Part shown: piece after piece, positions 839 through 11,701 of the stretch
Numbering within the stretch: the stretch's first letter is position 1
How the letters are laid out: every line of letters starts with the position of its first letter
Assembly (NCBI RefSeq): GCF_003932895.1
Contig: NZ_RQYW01000005.1
Location: 62,001-126,000 of the forward strand
Source of the DNA: Leptotrichia sp. OH3620_COT-345
Lineage (GTDB): Bacteria; Fusobacteriota; Fusobacteriia; Fusobacteriales; Leptotrichiaceae
DNA length: 64,000 bases
Reading direction: 5' to 3'
Translations under genes and position numbers: made by a program
Notes under the pieces: generated by a model
The model's input: only the letters and a program-made list of their open reading frames with translations
Told to the model about the DNA's origin: nothing
The model's database searches: none

Positions 839-867
839 AAAATAAAGAATTGAGGAGGCTCTTATTA

Positions 868-3800
868 ATGAGTATAAGAGATTTTGACAGTATTCAAATC
901 AAATTGGCATCACCTGAGAAAATTTTGGAATGGTCTTATGGTGAAATAACAAAAGCCGAAACAATAAACTATAGAACTTTGAAACCTGAAATGGATGGAC
1001 TGTTCTGTGAAAGAATATTCGGACCGTCAAAGGACTATGAATGTTCATGTGGAAAATACAAAAGAATGAGATACAAAGGAATGACTTGTGAAAAATGCGG
1101 TGTTGAAGTTACAACTTCAAAAGTGAGAAGAGAAAGAATGGGTCACATCAAACTTGCTACACCTATTGCACATATATGGTACTCCAAGGGAACTCCAAAC
1201 AAAATGAGCCTTTTATTGGGTATAAGTACAAAAGAGCTTGAATCGGTTCTCTATTTTTCAAGATATATTGTAACGGACAAAGGAGATACTGAACTTGAAA
1301 AAGGTCAAATATTGACTGACAGAGAATATAAGATGTATGAAAGTCAGTATAAAAACGGATTTACTGCAAAAATGGGAGCAGAAGGTATATTAAAACTTCT
1401 TGAAGAAATAAATTTACAGGAACTTGAAAAAGAACTTGAAAAAGAAATGGAAATTGTAAATTCTTCCCAAAAAAGAAAGAAAATAATAAAGAGATTAAAA
1501 ATAGTAAGAGATTTAATACTGGCAGAAAACAGACCTGAATGGATGATTTTAACAGTTCTACCGGTTATACCTGCAGACTTGAGACCCATGGTACAGCTTG
1601 ATGGAGGAAGATTTGCAACATCAGATTTGAATGATTTGTACAGAAGAGTTATAAATAGAAATATAAGATTAAAGAAACTGATGTCCATTAAAGCACCTGA
1701 AATAGTAATAAAAAATGAGAAAAGAATGCTTCAGGAAGCTGTTGATGCACTCATAGATAACGGGAGAAGAGGAAAACCTGTAGTTACACAAAATAATAGA
1801 GAGTTGAAATCACTTTCAGATATGCTTAAAGGAAAACAGGGAAGATTTAGACAGAATCTTTTGGGAAAAAGGGTGGATTATTCAGGAAGATCGGTTATAG
1901 TAGTGGGACCTAACTTGAAAATGAATCAATGTGGACTTCCTAAAAAGATGGCACTTGAGCTTTATAAGCCATTTTTAATGAGAGAACTTGTTAAAAGAGA
2001 ATTGGCCACAAATATAAAAACTGCAAAGAAAATGGTTGAAGAAGAAGATGAAAATGTATGGGAACTCATAGAAGAAATTATAAAAAATCATCCTGTACTT
2101 TTAAATCGAGCTCCGACACTTCACAGACTTTCAATACAGGCATTTGAACCTACATTGATTGAAGGAAAAGCCATAAGACTCCATCCTTTAGTATGTTCTG
2201 CATTCAATGCTGACTTTGATGGTGATCAGATGGCGGTTCACCTTGTATTGTCCAATGAAGCGCAAATGGAAGCCAAACTTCTGATGCTTGCTACAAACAA
2301 TATACTTGCTCCGTCAAGCGGGAAACCTATTGCCGTGCCGTCACAGGATATGGTTATGGGGTGTTACTATATGACAAAAGAAAGAAAAGGGGAAAAAGGG
2401 GAAGGAAAATCATTTTCCAATAAAAATCAGCTAATTACCGCATATCAGAGTAAACAGGTAGACACTCATGCTCTGGTTAAAGTAAGAATAGACGGGGAAA
2501 TTATAGAAACAACTCCCGGAAGACTTATATTCAATACAATGCTTCCGAAAGAAGTAAGAGATTATTCAAAAACTTTCGGAAAAGGAGAACTTGGGAAGCT
2601 GATAGCCGATTTATATAAAAAGTTTGGGTTTGAAAAAACATCTGAGCTAATAGATAAAATTAAAAACTTCGGATTCCATCATGGAACTCTTGCAGGAATT
2701 ACAGTAGGAATAGAAGACCTTGAGATACCTGAATCCAAAAAGGGAATTTTGGAACAGGCAGAAAAAGATGTTGCTGAAGTTGAGGAACAGTACAAATCGG
2801 GAGAAATCATAGATGCTGAAAGATACAGAAGAACAGTCGCCATATGGTCTGAAGCGGTAGATAAGGTTACTCACGAAATGATGGACAACCTTGATGAATT
2901 TAACCCTGTGTATATGATGGCAAATTCAGGAGCCAGAGGTTCAGTAGCTCAGATGAGACAGCTCGGAGGGATGAGAGGACTTATGGCGGATACTCAAGGA
3001 CGAATAATAGAAATACCTATAAAAGCCAACTTCAGGGAAGGACTGAATATACTGGAATTTTTCATGTCATCTCACGGAGCGAGAAAAGGTCTGGCAGATA
3101 CAGCATTAAGAACTGCCGATTCGGGATATCTTACAAGAAGACTTGTAGATATTTCTCACGAAGTTATAGTAAATCATGATGATTGCGGATGTGAAGAGGG
3201 TATTCTAGTTTCGGATCTGATTGATGCAGGGAATGTTATTGAAAGATTAAGCGAAAGAATATATGGAAGAACTCTAGCAGAAGATCTTGTACATGAAGGT
3301 GAAGTTATAGCGGAAAGAAATACAATGATAATGGAAGATCTTATTAAGAAAATAGAAGAGCTTGAAATAAGAGAAGTAAAAATAAGAACACCGTTGACAT
3401 GTAAGCTGGAAAAAGGAGTATGTAAAAAATGTTACGGCCTTGATTTATCTAATCATAAGGAAATTCTTAAAGGAGAAGCGGTAGGAGTTATTGCCGCTCA
3501 GTCAATAGGAGAACCGGGAACGCAGCTTACAATGCGTACTTTCCATACAGGAGGAGTTGCAACTGCGGCGGCAGTACAATCTAATTATAAAGCTGATGTG
3601 TCAGGAAAAGTAAAACTGAAAGATATTACAACCCTTGAAAATGAAAAAGGAGTAGAAGTGGTAGTATCTCAGACAGGAAGAATAATAATAGGAAAACATA
3701 GATATGAAATACCGTCAGGAGCTGTTTTAAAAGTGAAAGATGGAGAAAATGTGAAAAAAGGTCAAATTTTAGTGGAATTTGATCCGTATCAGGTTCCTAT

Positions 3801-4884
3801 AATTACATCTGAAGCAGGAAAAATAGAATTCAGAGATATTTATGTAAGAGAAAATATAGATGTGAAATACGGAGTTACAGAAAGAATTGCTATAAAACCT
3901 GTAGAAAGTAACGATGTAAACCCGAGAATAATAATATATAATAAAAATAAGAAAGTTGCTGAATACAACATACCTTACGGAGCGTATCTTATGGTAAAAG
4001 AAGGAGATAGTGTAAAAAAGGGTCAAATAATAACAAAAATACTTAAAACGGGAGAAGGAAATAAAGATATTACAGGAGGTCTGCCAAGAGTACAGGAATT
4101 ATTTGAAGCAAGAAATCCTAAAGGAAAAGCGACTTTATCCGAAGTATCGGGACGTGTTATTTTTTCTGACAAGAAGAAAAAAGGGATGAGACTTATTACA
4201 ATAGAAGATCCTGAAAACGGGAAAGTAATAAAAGAATACACTGTTCCCGTAGGAGAGCATCTTGTAGTGACAAATGAAATGCTGATTGAGAAAGGAGCAA
4301 AAATAACGGACGGTCCTGTATCTCCTCACGATATACTTAAAATAAAAGGTCTCGTTGCAGCCCAGCAATTTATCCTTGAATCAGTACAACAGGTATATAG
4401 AGAGCAAGGCGTACCTATAAATGATAAACATATAGAAATAATAGTAAAACAGATGTTTCAGAAAGTAAAAATAAAAGAAGCGGGAGATTCCCTTTTTCTT
4501 GAAGATGAATTAATTGACAAAAAAATTGTGGAAAGAGAAAATGAAACTTTGGTTTCTAAAGGGAAAAATCCTGCAACTTATGAACCTGTGATACAGGGGA
4601 TAACTAAAGCCGCTGTAAATACGGAAAGCTTTATTTCCGCAGCTTCTTTCCAAGAAACAACAAAAGTTCTTGCAAATGCTGCAATTGAAGGAAAGATAGA
4701 TAGACTTGAAGGGATGAAAGAAAACGTAATTATCGGTAAGAGAATGCCGGGAGGAACAGGCTTTAAAGATTATAAACATATTAAAGTGGAACTGAAAAAT
4801 GGAGATTCCGGTAACATTGATATTGAAAATATTAGAGAAGAAAAAAATGGAAATATTTCAAATGCGGAAATTATAGAGGAATAA
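868..4884 (+). CDS. rpoC: DNA-directed RNA polymerase subunit beta'
   Basis: Encodes the beta' subunit of RNA polymerase, 1338 residues. ATG at 868 is chosen because AGGAGG (853-858) sits 9 bases upstream and the protein then begins MSIRDFDSI, as in other beta' subunits; a longer TTG-started frame exists from 850. The N-terminal zinc ribbon has Cys59, Cys61, Cys74 and Cys77. The catalytic loop NADFDGDQ has the three Mg2+-binding Asp at 449, 451 and 453. The second zinc site uses a Cys at 773/775 with Cys845, Cys852 and Cys855. The gene is complete. The following gene starts 2 bases after the stop, so rpoC leads a long transcript. No rpoB lies immediately upstream, which is unusual. Confidence 0.98.
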
Positions 4885-5976: not shown

Positions 5977-7785
5977 ATGTATAAAGATACCGAAATACAG
6001 AAACTTATAGATAATTTGGATATAGTTCAAGTTATCGGGGAATACGTCACATTAAAAAAAACAGGTGCAAATTATAAGGGGTTATCTCCTTTTAAAGAAG
6101 AAAGAACGCCTTCATTTGTAGTAAGTCCCACAAAAAATATATTTAAAGACTTCAGTACTAATATAGGAGGAAATGTAATTTCTTTCTATATGAAAATTAA
6201 TAATATCAGTTTCTATGAAGCAATAGAAGAGTTGTCCAGAAAATATAACATTTCATTAAATAAAATAAATAACGATCGAAAAAAAGAAGACCATGATTTT
6301 CGTTATTATGAAATAATGAAAGAAGCTCATCTATTTTTCAAGAAGAATATATTCGATTCTGATAAAGCCATGGAATATATGAATAATCGAGACTTTTCCA
6401 AAGAAGAGATACAAAAATTTGAAATAGGATTTTCACCTGATTCATGGGACAGCTTATTTACTTACCTTAAAGAAAAAGGGTATAATGAAAAGGAACTTTT
6501 AGAATTGGGATTAATACGGAAAAATGATAAAGGGAATGTATTTGATTATTTCAGGAATAGAATAATATTCCCTATTTACAACAATATGATGAAATTAACA
6601 GGATTCGGAGGAAGGACTATAGAAAATAGTTCAGACATTCCTAAATATCTTAATTCTCCTGATTCAAAAATATTCAAAAAAGGAAAGGAACTTTTTGGAT
6701 TATATAATAGGGGAGAAAATATAAAGAAAAAGGGACTTGCTATTTTAATGGAAGGTTATCTCGATGTATTAACTGCTCAAAAAAACGGTTTCATAAATTC
6801 TGTTGCTAGCCTTGGTACGGCGTTTACTCAAGAACAGGCACAGCTATTAAAAAAATATACGAATAATGTTATAATAGCCTATGATAATGATAACGCAGGA
6901 AAAGAAGCAGTAATAAAAGCAGGAAATATACTTAAAAAATACGATTTTAATGTGAGATGTCTTCAAATTGAAGGAGAAGTAAAAGATCCTGATGAATATT
7001 TAAGGAAATATGGTAGAAAAAATTTTCTTGAAATACTGAAAACATCAAAAAATATTTTTGAGTTTCTATATGATTATTTTTCAGAAAATCTTAACCTAAA
7101 TGACATATCAGGAAAAAAAGAAATCATTAAAAAATTTAAGGAATTTTTTTCAAATATAACCAATAAAACCGAAAGCAATTTATATTTGAATAAACTGTCC
7201 ATAGAATTAAGTGTGGATAGGGAAATTCTTTCAGAGGAACTTTCCGGTAATCTGTTAAAAAAATATAGATATAAAAATTCAGCATTAAAAAGAAAAAAGG
7301 AAACAGTCATGACAAAGCTTCCTAAAGAGGAAAAATACGATAAACTTGAAAAGGAAACTTTGAAATTTATGCTGAAATATAAAAATGACAGCGGATTAAA
7401 AAGTAAAATATATTGTGAACAGTTTGAAAAAAAAATTTTTTCAAATATTATTTATGGAGAAATTTTTGAAAAATTAAAGGAAATAGAATTTAATATAGGA
7501 AGTTTGAATAATTTGATGTTGGAAGAAGAAGAAAAAGAACTTATAACAACGCTTAAATTACAAGCAGAAATTGAAATGTTTAATGAAGAAAGACAATATA
7601 AAGATATTTTCGTGGGATGGTTTTTGAGGGAAGTTGATTTCATGAAAGAAATTATTGAAAAAAAAGATAAATCTTATATAGTACTCCAACGATTAAAATC
7701 CGAATTAAAAACAATTCATAACATTAATGAAATTGAAGAAATGTATAAAGAATTTAAATTGATAAGGAGATCAGATTATGTCTGA
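5977..7785 (+). CDS. dnaG: DNA primase lacking the zinc-finger ligands
   Basis: Makes RNA primers for replication, 602 residues, the usual length. TGGGAGA lies 7 bases before ATG 5977. The N-terminal CHC2 domain is recognisable ([20 protein letters not shown], then GGNVISFYM), but all four zinc ligands are gone: the CPFH motif reads SPFK (Ser37, Lys40), and the CxxC pair is replaced by Asp58 and Thr61. The Toprim core is intact: EGYLDV with Glu259, and the acidic pair Asp303/Asp305 in AYDNDNAG. The C-terminal helicase-interacting part is present but poorly conserved, as usual. The gene overlaps rpoD by 8 bases. Identity is certain; how the first domain keeps its fold without zinc is open. Confidence 0.96.
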
Positions 7786-8956
7786 GAAAAAAGAAAATCT
7801 AAAAAATAGTCTCGCAAATTTAATAAAACAGGCAAGAGAAAAAAAAGTAGTCAGCTATGAAGAGATTAATTCAATCTTATCGGTCGGATTTTCAACACAG
7901 AAAATAGATCAGTTAATAAAAAAACTTCAAGATGACGGAGTAAACATTGTCGATACCTTAAAGGAGAAGGAAGAGCTTGTAAAAGTTTTAGAAATTCCTG
8001 AAAATTCTCAAAAAATTGGAGTTATAGCTCTTGAAGATACTGAAGATGAATTTATTGAAAGTGAAATAGATGATTCTGAAGTTGATAAATTATTACAGAC
8101 TGATTTACTTAAAATAGCTGAAAGTATGGACGTAGATGAGCCTATAAAAATGTATTTAAGAGAAATAGGACAGATACCTCTGCTCAGTTATGAAGAAGAG
8201 ATAGAATATGCTCAGAGAGTTCTTAACGGGGACGAAGAAGCGAAACAGAAGTTAATTGAATCTAACCTTAGGCTTGTTGTAAGTATTGCTAAAAAGCATA
8301 CAAATAGAGGTCTTAAAATGTTGGATCTCATACAAGAAGGAAATATGGGACTGATGAAGGCTGTAGAAAAATTTGAATATGAAAAAGGATTCAAGTTTTC
8401 AACATATGCTACATGGTGGATAAGACAGGCAATTACTCGTGCTATAGCTGATCAGGGAAGGACTATAAGAATTCCTGTACATATGATAGAAACAATAAAT
8501 AAAATAAAAAAAGAAAGCAGGATTATTTTACAGGAAACAGGGAAAGAGCCTACTGCCGAAGAATTGGCTAAAAAACTTGAAATACCTGTAGATAAAGTAA
8601 AAAATATACTTGAAATGAATCAAGATCCCATATCTCTTGAAACTCCTGTAGGAAGTGAAGAAGACAGTGAACTTGGAGATTTTGTAGAAGACGATAAATT
8701 TTTAAATCCTTATGATGCAACAACACGTGTATTACTTAAAGAACAACTTGATGAAATTTTAAAAACTTTAAATGAAAGAGAAGAAATGGTTCTCAGATAT
8801 AGATATGGTTTAGATGACGGTTCTCAGAAAACATTGGAGGAAGTAGGGAAAATATTTAATGTTACAAGGGAACGTATCAGACAGATTGAAGTAAAGGCAT
8901 TAAGAAAATTAAGACATCCAAGCAGAAGAAAAAAATTGGAAGATTATAGGAGCTGA
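7778..8956 (+). CDS. rpoD: Primary RNA polymerase sigma factor
   Basis: The housekeeping sigma-70, 392 residues. A region 1.1-like N-terminus (1-70) is followed by an acidic stretch, region 1.2 (about 118-150), region 2 (about 155-230) with [20 protein letters not shown] and the promoter-melting [14 protein letters not shown] (207-220), region 3, and region 4 (about 325-385) with a helix-turn-helix ending [15 protein letters not shown]. It is compact like Firmicutes SigA and lacks the large non-conserved insert of E. coli. ATG 7778 overlaps the end of dnaG, with AAGGAGA upstream, so the two are translationally coupled as in the classic dnaG-rpoD unit. Confidence 0.98.
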
Positions 8957-9019
8957 GTATTTACAAGGCTCCTTTAATAATAAGCGTTTTTAAATTATAA
9001 CATAGGACAAGGGGAGAAA

Positions 9020-9982
9020 ATGTTAAGAAGAATAATAGATGATATAAAGAAAAAGGGAAATTTCAGTTTTGAAAAAATAATAGAAGATAATAATTTGTCA
9101 GATGATGATTTTTTTGAGATATTAAAGTATATTTATGTCGAAAACATACCGGAAATAAGAACTTCTGTTGATAATAATGATTTTATAGTTCTGGAAAATG
9201 AAAATTTCTATATTGAGGAAAAAGACATTATAAAGTCATATTTGGAAGATATAAAAGAAAAATATAAAAAATGTAATAAATCAGAAAATAAAAAAGAAAA
9301 CAGTAAAATTGAAAATGAGGAATTAATAGACAAATATCTGAAGGTAGCTGTAAAAGAAAGTCTACTTTATTCAAAATTCGGATTTTCCTTTTTAGACACT
9401 GTACAGGAAGCTACTTTGGGTATAATGTCGGGAATTAATTATTATGATAGGATAATGGAAATATCAAAAGAACCTGAATTTTTTGTGAAAAATTTTGCAG
9501 TAAAGTATATTCTTGAATTTCAGAAAAATTTATTGAAAGATATAAAAGCTTCAGAGCTTTCATATATTCTTTATCTAAAAGTAAAAGCAGATAGAGAAAC
9601 AGGAAAAAATATAGAAGAAATAAGCAGGCAAATGAATGTGACTTCCGAATATATAGAAGATTTAGAAAGACTTTTTGATGGGATAAAACCTGAAGAATTG
9701 ATAGGAAATGAAGAAATTCTTGAAAAAGCTGATAAAATAACACAGATGTATATACTTGAAAATATTCCTAAAAAATTAAATTATTTAGATGAAAAAATTC
9801 TTGTTATGTCTTATGGATTGGAAGATAAAGTATATAATGAAAAAGAAATAGCAAAAATTCTTAATATTTCAACTCATAATGTAAATATATTAAAAGAAAA
9901 AGCGATAAACAAACTATCTATAGATTTACTGAAAAATGAATTTACAAGAAATACTGAAGAAAAAGATTATATAATAAATTAA
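9020..9982 (+). CDS. Degenerate sigma-70-like protein downstream of rpoD
   Basis: A 320-residue protein not assigned to a named family. Comparison with the neighbouring sigma factor shows a diverged copy. SFLDTVQEATLGIMSGINYYD (about 123-143) matches region 2.2, and LNYLDEKILVMSYGLEDK through LKEKAINKLS (about 253-300) matches region 4 up to the end of its helix-turn-helix. The aromatic melting motif of region 2.3-2.4 is missing: where sigma has [10 protein letters not shown] this protein reads EFFVKNFAVKY. The basic recognition helix is also changed. The N-terminus (1-100) is acidic/lysine-rich and unmatched. GGGGAG precedes ATG 9020. It lies 63 bases after rpoD and 14 before the NIF3 gene. 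It may bind core polymerase or rpoD without recognising normal promoters; that is inference. Confidence 0.7.
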   Translation: MLRRIIDDIKKKGNFSFEKIIEDNNLSDDDFFEILKYIYVENIPEIRTSVDNNDFIVLENENFYIEEKDIIKSYLEDIKEKYKKCNKSENKKENSKIENEELIDKYLKVAVKESLLYSKFGFSFLDTVQEATLGIMSGINYYDRIMEISKEPEFFVKNFAVKYILEFQKNLLKDIKASELSYILYLKVKADRETGKNIEEISRQMNVTSEYIEDLERLFDGIKPEELIGNEEILEKADKITQMYILENIPKKLNYLDEKILVMSYGLEDKVYNEKEIAKILNISTHNVNILKEKAINKLSIDLLKNEFTRNTEEKDYIIN

Positions 9983-9996
9983 AAGGAGAAAGTCCG

Positions 9997-10806
9997 ATGA
10001 AATTAAGAAAAATAATGGGAGAATTGTTCTCAATATATAATCCGAAAGTTGCTGAAGAGTGGGACAATGTCGGCTTGCTACTGGGAAATGAAAATTCTGA
10101 AATAAATAAAATAATGGTATGTCTTGATATTACTGAAAAAGCTATAAATGAAGCAATAAGCAGAAAAGTGGACCTTATAATTTCTCATCACCCGTTTATA
10201 TTTTCAGGGATAAAAAGAATAACTGATGAAACGGAATTGGGAAGGAAAATATTGAAATTGGCTGAAAATAGGATAGCAGTTTATTCTATACATACAAATG
10301 CTGATTTCGCCATAAACGGATTAAATGACTTTGTTATGGATAAACTTAAATTAGATGGAGAAATGTATATATTCAATGAATTTGAATTTGATGATTACAA
10401 TTATATAAAAAATAAAAATGAAAAAATAAAGTGTGGTTCGGTAAGAATAAAAGTTCTTAACAATGAAATGGAATTAGTAGATTTGATTGAGCAAATAAAG
10501 ACAAATCTCGGTCTTGATTATGTGAGATATGCGGGGGAAAATAGAAATATTCGGAAAATAGGTCTTGTAACAGGAGGAGGAAGTTCTTTTCTGAAAGATA
10601 TAAAAAAAGATATTGATGTTTTTTTGACAGGAGATTTGAGACATCATGAAGCACTTGACACAATTGAAGAAGGAGGGATACTTGTTGATATAGGTCATTA
10701 TGAAAGTGAGTATCTTTTTGTTGATCTTATGGAACTTCAATTATCAAAATTTTTTGAAGGTGAAATAATAAAATATTTTGGAGAAGTAGTTTTTAAATTA
10801 GGGTAA
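9997..10806 (+). CDS. NIF3/DUF34 family dinuclear metal protein
   Basis: A 269-residue protein of the NIF3-like (YqfO/YbgI) family. Family features visible are NPKVAEEWDNVGLLLG near the N-terminus, the metal-binding LIISHHPFIFSGIKRI with paired His, HTNADFAINGLNDFV, and the C-terminal VDIGHYESEYLFV with the last His and Glu ligands. Known structures are hexameric rings with two metals per subunit; the biochemical role is still debated. The dnaG-rpoD-(other gene)-NIF3 order is common in low-GC bacteria. The length lacks the extra middle domain found in some Firmicutes members. Confidence 0.92.
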   Translation: MKLRKIMGELFSIYNPKVAEEWDNVGLLLGNENSEINKIMVCLDITEKAINEAISRKVDLIISHHPFIFSGIKRITDETELGRKILKLAENRIAVYSIHTNADFAINGLNDFVMDKLKLDGEMYIFNEFEFDDYNYIKNKNEKIKCGSVRIKVLNNEMELVDLIEQIKTNLGLDYVRYAGENRNIRKIGLVTGGGSSFLKDIKKDIDVFLTGDLRHHEALDTIEEGGILVDIGHYESEYLFVDLMELQLSKFFEGEIIKYFGEVVFKLG

Positions 10807-11417: not shown

Positions 11418-11566
11418 ATGGGAATATTACAAAGGAAATAATTTTAATAAAACTAAAGAGTATAAAAAATAAAAAAACGGCAAAATGAAAAAAGAACACA
11501 TAAAAAATGGAAAAATATAGAAATAAATTTTACAATATTATAGATAATAAAAGTAGAGGTAAGATA

Positions 11567-11701
11567 ATGACTAAAAGAAGAATTTTAATATTATTAACAG
11601 TAATTTTACTTTTAAATTCATGTGTAGCTGTGGTTGCAGGAGCTGCAGGAGGTGCAGTAGGCTATTATTGCGGAACTACATCAAAATGTGATGGAAAATA
11701 A
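11567..11701 (+). CDS. Very small lipoprotein
   Basis: A 44-residue product with a basic start (MTKRR), a hydrophobic helix and a lipobox LLNSC, followed by VAVVAGAAGGAVGYY. AGAGGT lies 6 bases before ATG 11567. After signal removal at Cys19 only 26 residues remain. The CVAVVAGAAGGA run resembles the start of longer outer-membrane-type lipoproteins (DUF3568-like), so this may be the truncated head of one; no continuation is found downstream before the RNase P gene. Real lipoprotein export is plausible, function unknown. Confidence 0.55.
   Translation: MTKRRILILLTVILLLNSCVAVVAGAAGGAVGYYCGTTSKCDGK

Follow-up and report, generated by a model that had tools for sequence, protein, structure and literature searches.

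A sigma-70-derived protein encoded between rpoD and nif3 in Leptotrichia is a candidate promoter-blind paralogue that may still bind core RNA polymerase

The window analyzed here, a stretch of 64,000 nucleotides from Leptotrichia sp. OH3620_COT-345, contains between rpoD and nif3 a gene whose product is, as judged from profile and pairwise comparisons, a member of the sigma-70 superfamily by descent. The name S2 is used for the ORF at 9020-9982 (+) and for its orthologues. Our leading interpretation, to which we give a probability of about 0.5, is that S2 is a promoter-blind sigma paralogue that would still bind core RNA polymerase and compete with, or modulate, sigma. We infer core binding from the selective retention of residues that contact beta', and with it the competition with sigma and a regulatory role.

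S2 is an intact ORF of 320 aa with an ATG start (9020..9982, + strand), and the ribosome-binding site AGGGGAG was read from the sequence just 5' of this codon (9010..9016, +). Internal stops are absent, so that the initial annotation was right in treating the ORF as real and well provided with a ribosome site. Upstream lies rpoD, which encodes the primary sigma factor (7778..8956, +; matched by the NCBIfam RpoD models, with TIGR02393 at 402 bits), and downstream lies nif3 (9997..10806, +). S2 occurs as a single copy in its genome; further sigma-type matches there were to RpoD, to a sigma of 281 aa encoded on contig C4, and to some shorter sequences with region 4 similarity. At the S2 locus no RNA element was found in Rfam and no terminator was detected, and a promoter scan gave 13 sites vs. 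8.1 expected, which is uninformative. Between nif3 and the NAD kinase gene lies a stretch that is gene-poor apart from a small 64-aa ORF (window 11507-11701) with a lipoprotein-like signal, LLLNSC.

The relationship of S2 to sigma-70 was apparent in several comparisons. Pfam Sigma70_r4 matched residues 253-299 with an E-value of 2.3e-7, above the curated cut-off, and blastp against the RpoD of the window gave 24% identity over regions 1.2-4 (E 6e-11). Solved SigA proteins were matched at 3.5e-7, several RpoD/SigA models gave weak but significant matches, and a profile of the Leptotrichiaceae S2 proteins aligned with an RpoD/RpoS profile over residues 68-296, i.e., regions 1.2-4, with 96.7% probability (E 3.4e-10). 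Region 2 alone fell under the Pfam cut-off in the window S2 but passed it in L021, a relative within the S2 family (27.6 vs. a cut-off of 24 bits). Hence the similarity to sigma-70 in region 2.2 and region 4 that had been proposed from the sequence was recovered, both in the alignment and in the Pfam match to region 4, and S2 matched no other family, including the tRNA methyltransferase TrmK (PF04816). The AlphaFold2 model of S2, built on a five-sequence alignment, was poor (mean pLDDT 52), and its fold matches therefore carry little weight; sigma factors ranked first among them and region 4 superposed best, none with an E-value <0.001.

S2 was found in 95 of 96 Fusobacteriales genomes and in one genome outside the order, and the check for orthologues at the same locus located it directly upstream of nif3 in 89/89 genomes that had both genes on the fetched stretch. 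The commonest spacing is a 4-base overlap, and in the window's own family the two genes mostly do not overlap. In some genomes rpoD is located elsewhere, and S2 and nif3 are still together. S2 is missing in G049, in which rpoD and nif3 are direct neighbors. In G097, the genome from outside the order, S2 likewise immediately precedes nif3; it has DLLQEG but no WW. The 0.8-Mb genome G096 lacks nif3, and its two sigma-type matches look like RpoD and another sigma. A tRNA methyltransferase had been expected in this slot, which did not hold: TrmK (PF04816) reaches the cut-off in 3/96 genomes only and is missing from nearly all Fusobacteriales, the genome of the window included, and S2 therefore takes the TrmK slot before nif3.

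A near-canonical S2 of ~344 aa is encoded in 11 genomes, which represent several genera of the Fusobacterium-side family as well as two minor families. WW has been retained in these proteins along with regions 2, 3 and 4, and their N-terminus is region 1.1-like. A phage or defense origin was considered and rejected, the PHROG sigma match being weak only and the PADLOC result for the window S2 blank; a PADLOC call of MzaA on a canonical relative came through sigma homology only. The length of NIF3 also varies, being ~326-366 aa where S2 is canonical and also in one additional genus, vs. ~255-277 aa elsewhere; the long forms (L036:4319-5392, L037:5565-6569 and similar) match in two pieces, as if carrying an insert. 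In G012, nif3 (L015:2495-3303) is split into two overlapping frames of 175 and 100 aa, through a frameshift or a sequencing error. In the single-contig genome G014 (L071:5052-7930), an insert of ~1.9 kb interrupts S2 after about residue 55. It carries an IS605-type TnpB (417 aa), and the two S2 flanks together still span the protein; the ~500 nt located 5' of tnpB look by eye like a group I intron (IStron-like), with no intron match in Rfam.

Alignment to E. coli RpoD placed sigma regions 2.1-2.2, the core-binding helices, at residues 100-137 of the window S2 (9317..9430, +). Within these helices, the motif D126-T-V-Q129-E130-A (9395..9412, +) is the equivalent of E. coli D403/Q406/E407, which together with N409 are the region 2.2 contacts to the beta' coiled-coil (PMC8321222). 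Three of the four beta'-contact residues (D126, Q129 and E130) are kept, and N409 is replaced by T. On the side of the receptor, R275, E295, and A302 of the beta' coiled-coil are required for holoenzyme formation (PMC8321222), and alignment of the product of rpoC in the window (850..4884, +) to E. coli RpoC showed that they are kept as R270, E290, and A297. The segment that follows in S2, residues 138-187 (9431..9580, +), represents the former regions 2.3-3.0, from which WW and the -10 contacts have been lost, 0/15 DNA-contact positions being kept. Their place is taken by the sequence FAVKYILEFQK...KASELSYILYLK, which is strongly conserved within the family, and in the window lineage conservation is good across regions 2.3-3.0 and 4. 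The new conserved sequence on the former -10 face suggests a new contact, not decay.

Sigma region 4 spans residues 244-300 (9749..9919, +) and has an altered recognition helix. At Q437, T440, R584, and R588, positions of -10/-35 recognition, the window S2 has K, L, T, and N; the changes in region 4.2 are R584>T, E585>H, R588>N, and Q589>I (E. coli numbering), in agreement with the initial annotation, which had noted the lack of both the WW melting motif and the basic recognition helix. At the other end of the protein, residues 14-60 (9059..9199, +) align with the N-termini of canonical S2, which in turn match RpoD region 1.1 (88%, E 3.2e-6; reversed control unmatched). When the N-terminus of the window lineage was compared directly with RpoD region 1.1, no significant match resulted, and the N-terminus of the window S2 is regarded as region 1.1-like by transitivity through canonical S2.

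The retention of core contacts relative to DNA contacts was scored across the family. Apart from the four region 2.2 residues, the DNA- and core-contact positions scored are those that we take to be such from general knowledge of sigma-70; the labels Fusobacterium-, Sebaldella-, Streptobacillus-, and Sneathia-like are guesses made from kinship among other things. In 17 Leptotrichia/Sebaldella-like S2 proteins D403, Q406, and E407 are invariant and the 15 DNA-contact positions that are invariant in RpoD have all changed (core 0.68, DNA 0.00); Q406 and E407 are present in 42/42 Fusobacterium-like proteins (core 0.65, DNA 0.23); and nine Streptobacillus/Sneathia-like proteins show a weak pattern, the p values being 1.7e-5, 0.006, and 0.086, respectively, with positions taken as independent and kinship ignored. 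Alignment-free searches detected WW in 77/77 RpoD, 11/11 canonical S2 and 0/75 other S2, and [DE]xxQ[DE][GAS] in 70/75 non-canonical S2; among these 75, even a less strict motif lacking the final position would be expected in about 18 proteins. The Streptobacillus/Sneathia-like subgroup is the most eroded: DxxQE is missing in 3/9, and in one genus (G019, L120:1412-2224; G020, L121:951-1757) part of the region 4.2 helix-turn-helix is deleted, with the gene still located before nif3. For this reason, function may differ there.

A maximum-likelihood tree placed S2 on its own side of a 100/97 branch, apart from RpoD, RpoS, RpoH, and FliA, though the long branches call for caution. S2 did not group with the rpoD of its own lineage, and it is thus not a recent copy of this rpoD. 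The earlier description of a copy of the adjacent rpoD stands with regard to derivation from sigma-70 and falls with regard to a fresh duplication, since the split is ancient and orthologues occur order-wide. On the strength of the tree and the distribution, we regard S2 as an ancient, order-wide family that is paired with nif3. When mapped on the RpoD tree, the division into WW and no-WW genomes requires two or more changes, and the branches concerned are well supported. Provided that the canonical form is the ancestral one, stripping of S2 would have occurred at least twice independently, and G097 may add a third origin. In the gene tree, stripped S2 proteins from two families fall together, which is probably long-branch attraction, and independent loss was therefore judged from the RpoD tree. 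The pairwise dN/dS of S2 was 0.092 in a comparison with the one other genome of the genus that is well assembled, and the remaining pairs mostly gave 0.04-0.16; in most pairs nif3 had the higher ratio. The pair G027/G028 is an outlier at 0.24. As had been anticipated, these ratios indicate that S2 is under purifying selection and is not drifting. A pseudogene was ruled out by the low dN/dS together with a frame that is intact in nearly all genomes.

We propose that S2 was originally an alternative sigma factor made up of region 1.1-like, 1.2, 2, 3, and 4 parts, and that in several Fusobacterial lineages, including that of the window, it would have become a promoter-blind, RNA polymerase-binding protein. 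Its region 2.1-2.2 helices, through D126/Q129/E130, would dock on the clamp coiled-coil of beta' at the site used by region 2.2 of RpoD, and its region 4 may rest against the beta flap. Being presumably unable to capture the -10 strand or to read the -35, S2 would lower or reshape the occupancy of core by RpoD, as a sigma competitor or holding factor, or alternatively would act on polymerase after initiation. Several points speak against the docking: folding could be what preserves the region 2.2 residues, changes in them are reported only to weaken beta' binding (PMC8321222), N409 is not among the residues kept, and the pattern is weak in the Streptobacillus/Sneathia-like proteins. Since region 4 is well conserved in the window lineage, some DNA binding is possible. 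A wider formulation, in which S2 would be an order-wide housekeeping decoy or modulator of sigma that is chromosomal, beside rpoD and paired with nif3, fills the sigma docking site without promoter function and evolved repeatedly from a true alternative sigma, is more tentative and falls somewhat short of an even chance.

Could S2 instead be a working alternative sigma that serves unusual promoters by means of different residues? The canonical proteins of 11 genomes look like complete sigma factors with changed 2.4 and 4.2 residues, region 4 of the window S2 still matches Pfam, and its lineage shows good conservation of regions 2.3-3.0 and 4. We nonetheless consider this unlikely, as 15/15 DNA-contact positions in regions 2-3.0 and the tested -35 residues have been changed, WW is found in none of the 75 non-canonical proteins, the region 3.2 finger is absent in the window lineage, and the positive charge in region 4.2 drops from +3.9 to +1.6. 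The conserved new sequence on the former -10 face would also suit a mimic that binds a sigma regulator (an anti-sigma or similar) and not polymerase, like PhyR-NepR, and mimicry by a sigma-like domain has a precedent (PMC4598750). However, S2 has no receiver domain in Pfam, no anti-sigma gene adjoins it in the window, and its best-kept residues are the beta' contacts, which makes such a role improbable.

The constant pairing with nif3 bears on two further readings. One is that S2 is half of a two-part sigma, as in SigO-RsoA, with NIF3 or another sigma as its partner, split sigma factors being precedented in B. subtilis (PMC10141391). The similarity of S2 to both region 2 and region 4 speaks against such a division, which we hold to be very unlikely. 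We also know of no role of NIF3 in transcription, and this counts against it as well. The other and least credible reading takes S2 for a decaying relic, kept by joint transcription/translation with nif3. The fixed position before nif3, commonly with a 4-base overlap, would fit, as would the outright loss of S2 in G049 and its interruption by an insert in G014; against this stand a dN/dS that is low and mostly below that of nif3, strong conservation within genera and the mostly non-overlapping arrangement in the window's own family.

Among known systems, S2 is homologous over regions 1.2-4 to RpoD/SigA and the group 2 sigma factors (TIGR02997, TIGR02393), and canonical S2, with WW kept, scores up to about 199 bits to TIGR02997. 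The window S2, in contrast, lies under every curated cut-off for a named RpoD family, and proteins of its lineage differ from RpoD/SigA in having lost the region 3.2 finger together with the contacts for melting and for the -10 and -35 elements. The sigma-like domain of PhyR is comparable in that it derives from a sigma factor but presumably does not function as one (PMC4598750). It is, however, of ECF origin, is joined to a receiver domain, and has the anti-sigma NepR as its binding partner, whereas S2 is RpoD-like and retains the beta'-contact motif. SigO-RsoA of B. subtilis resembles S2 in that sigma functions are divided or reduced in a sigma-related protein (PMC10141391); its subunits are small and separate, while S2 combines both similarities in one chain beside nif3. 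The eroded sigma factors of the strict endosymbionts Hodgkinia and Carsonella are likewise sigma-70 proteins with functional residues lost; all four beta'-contact residues are changed in Hodgkinia, and endosymbionts keep the melting aromatics (PMC8321222). The pattern in S2 is the reverse, with beta' contacts kept and aromatics lost, and an intact RpoD is present alongside. Sigma mimicry and split sigma factors are thus already known; a Fusobacterial rpoD paralogue or sigma decoy like S2 was not described in the literature searched, although a subscription paper could exist.

Few studies have addressed transcription in Fusobacteria and Leptotrichia, and the published work that we found deals with the ECF sigma-E (PMC11005410). 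With a conserved sigma-like protein next to rpoD, the view of sigma competition in Fusobacteria could change, and binding of this protein to core without promoter recognition would be directly testable. The intact-looking and stripped S2 orthologues in related genera would offer a natural series of a sigma factor turning into something else.
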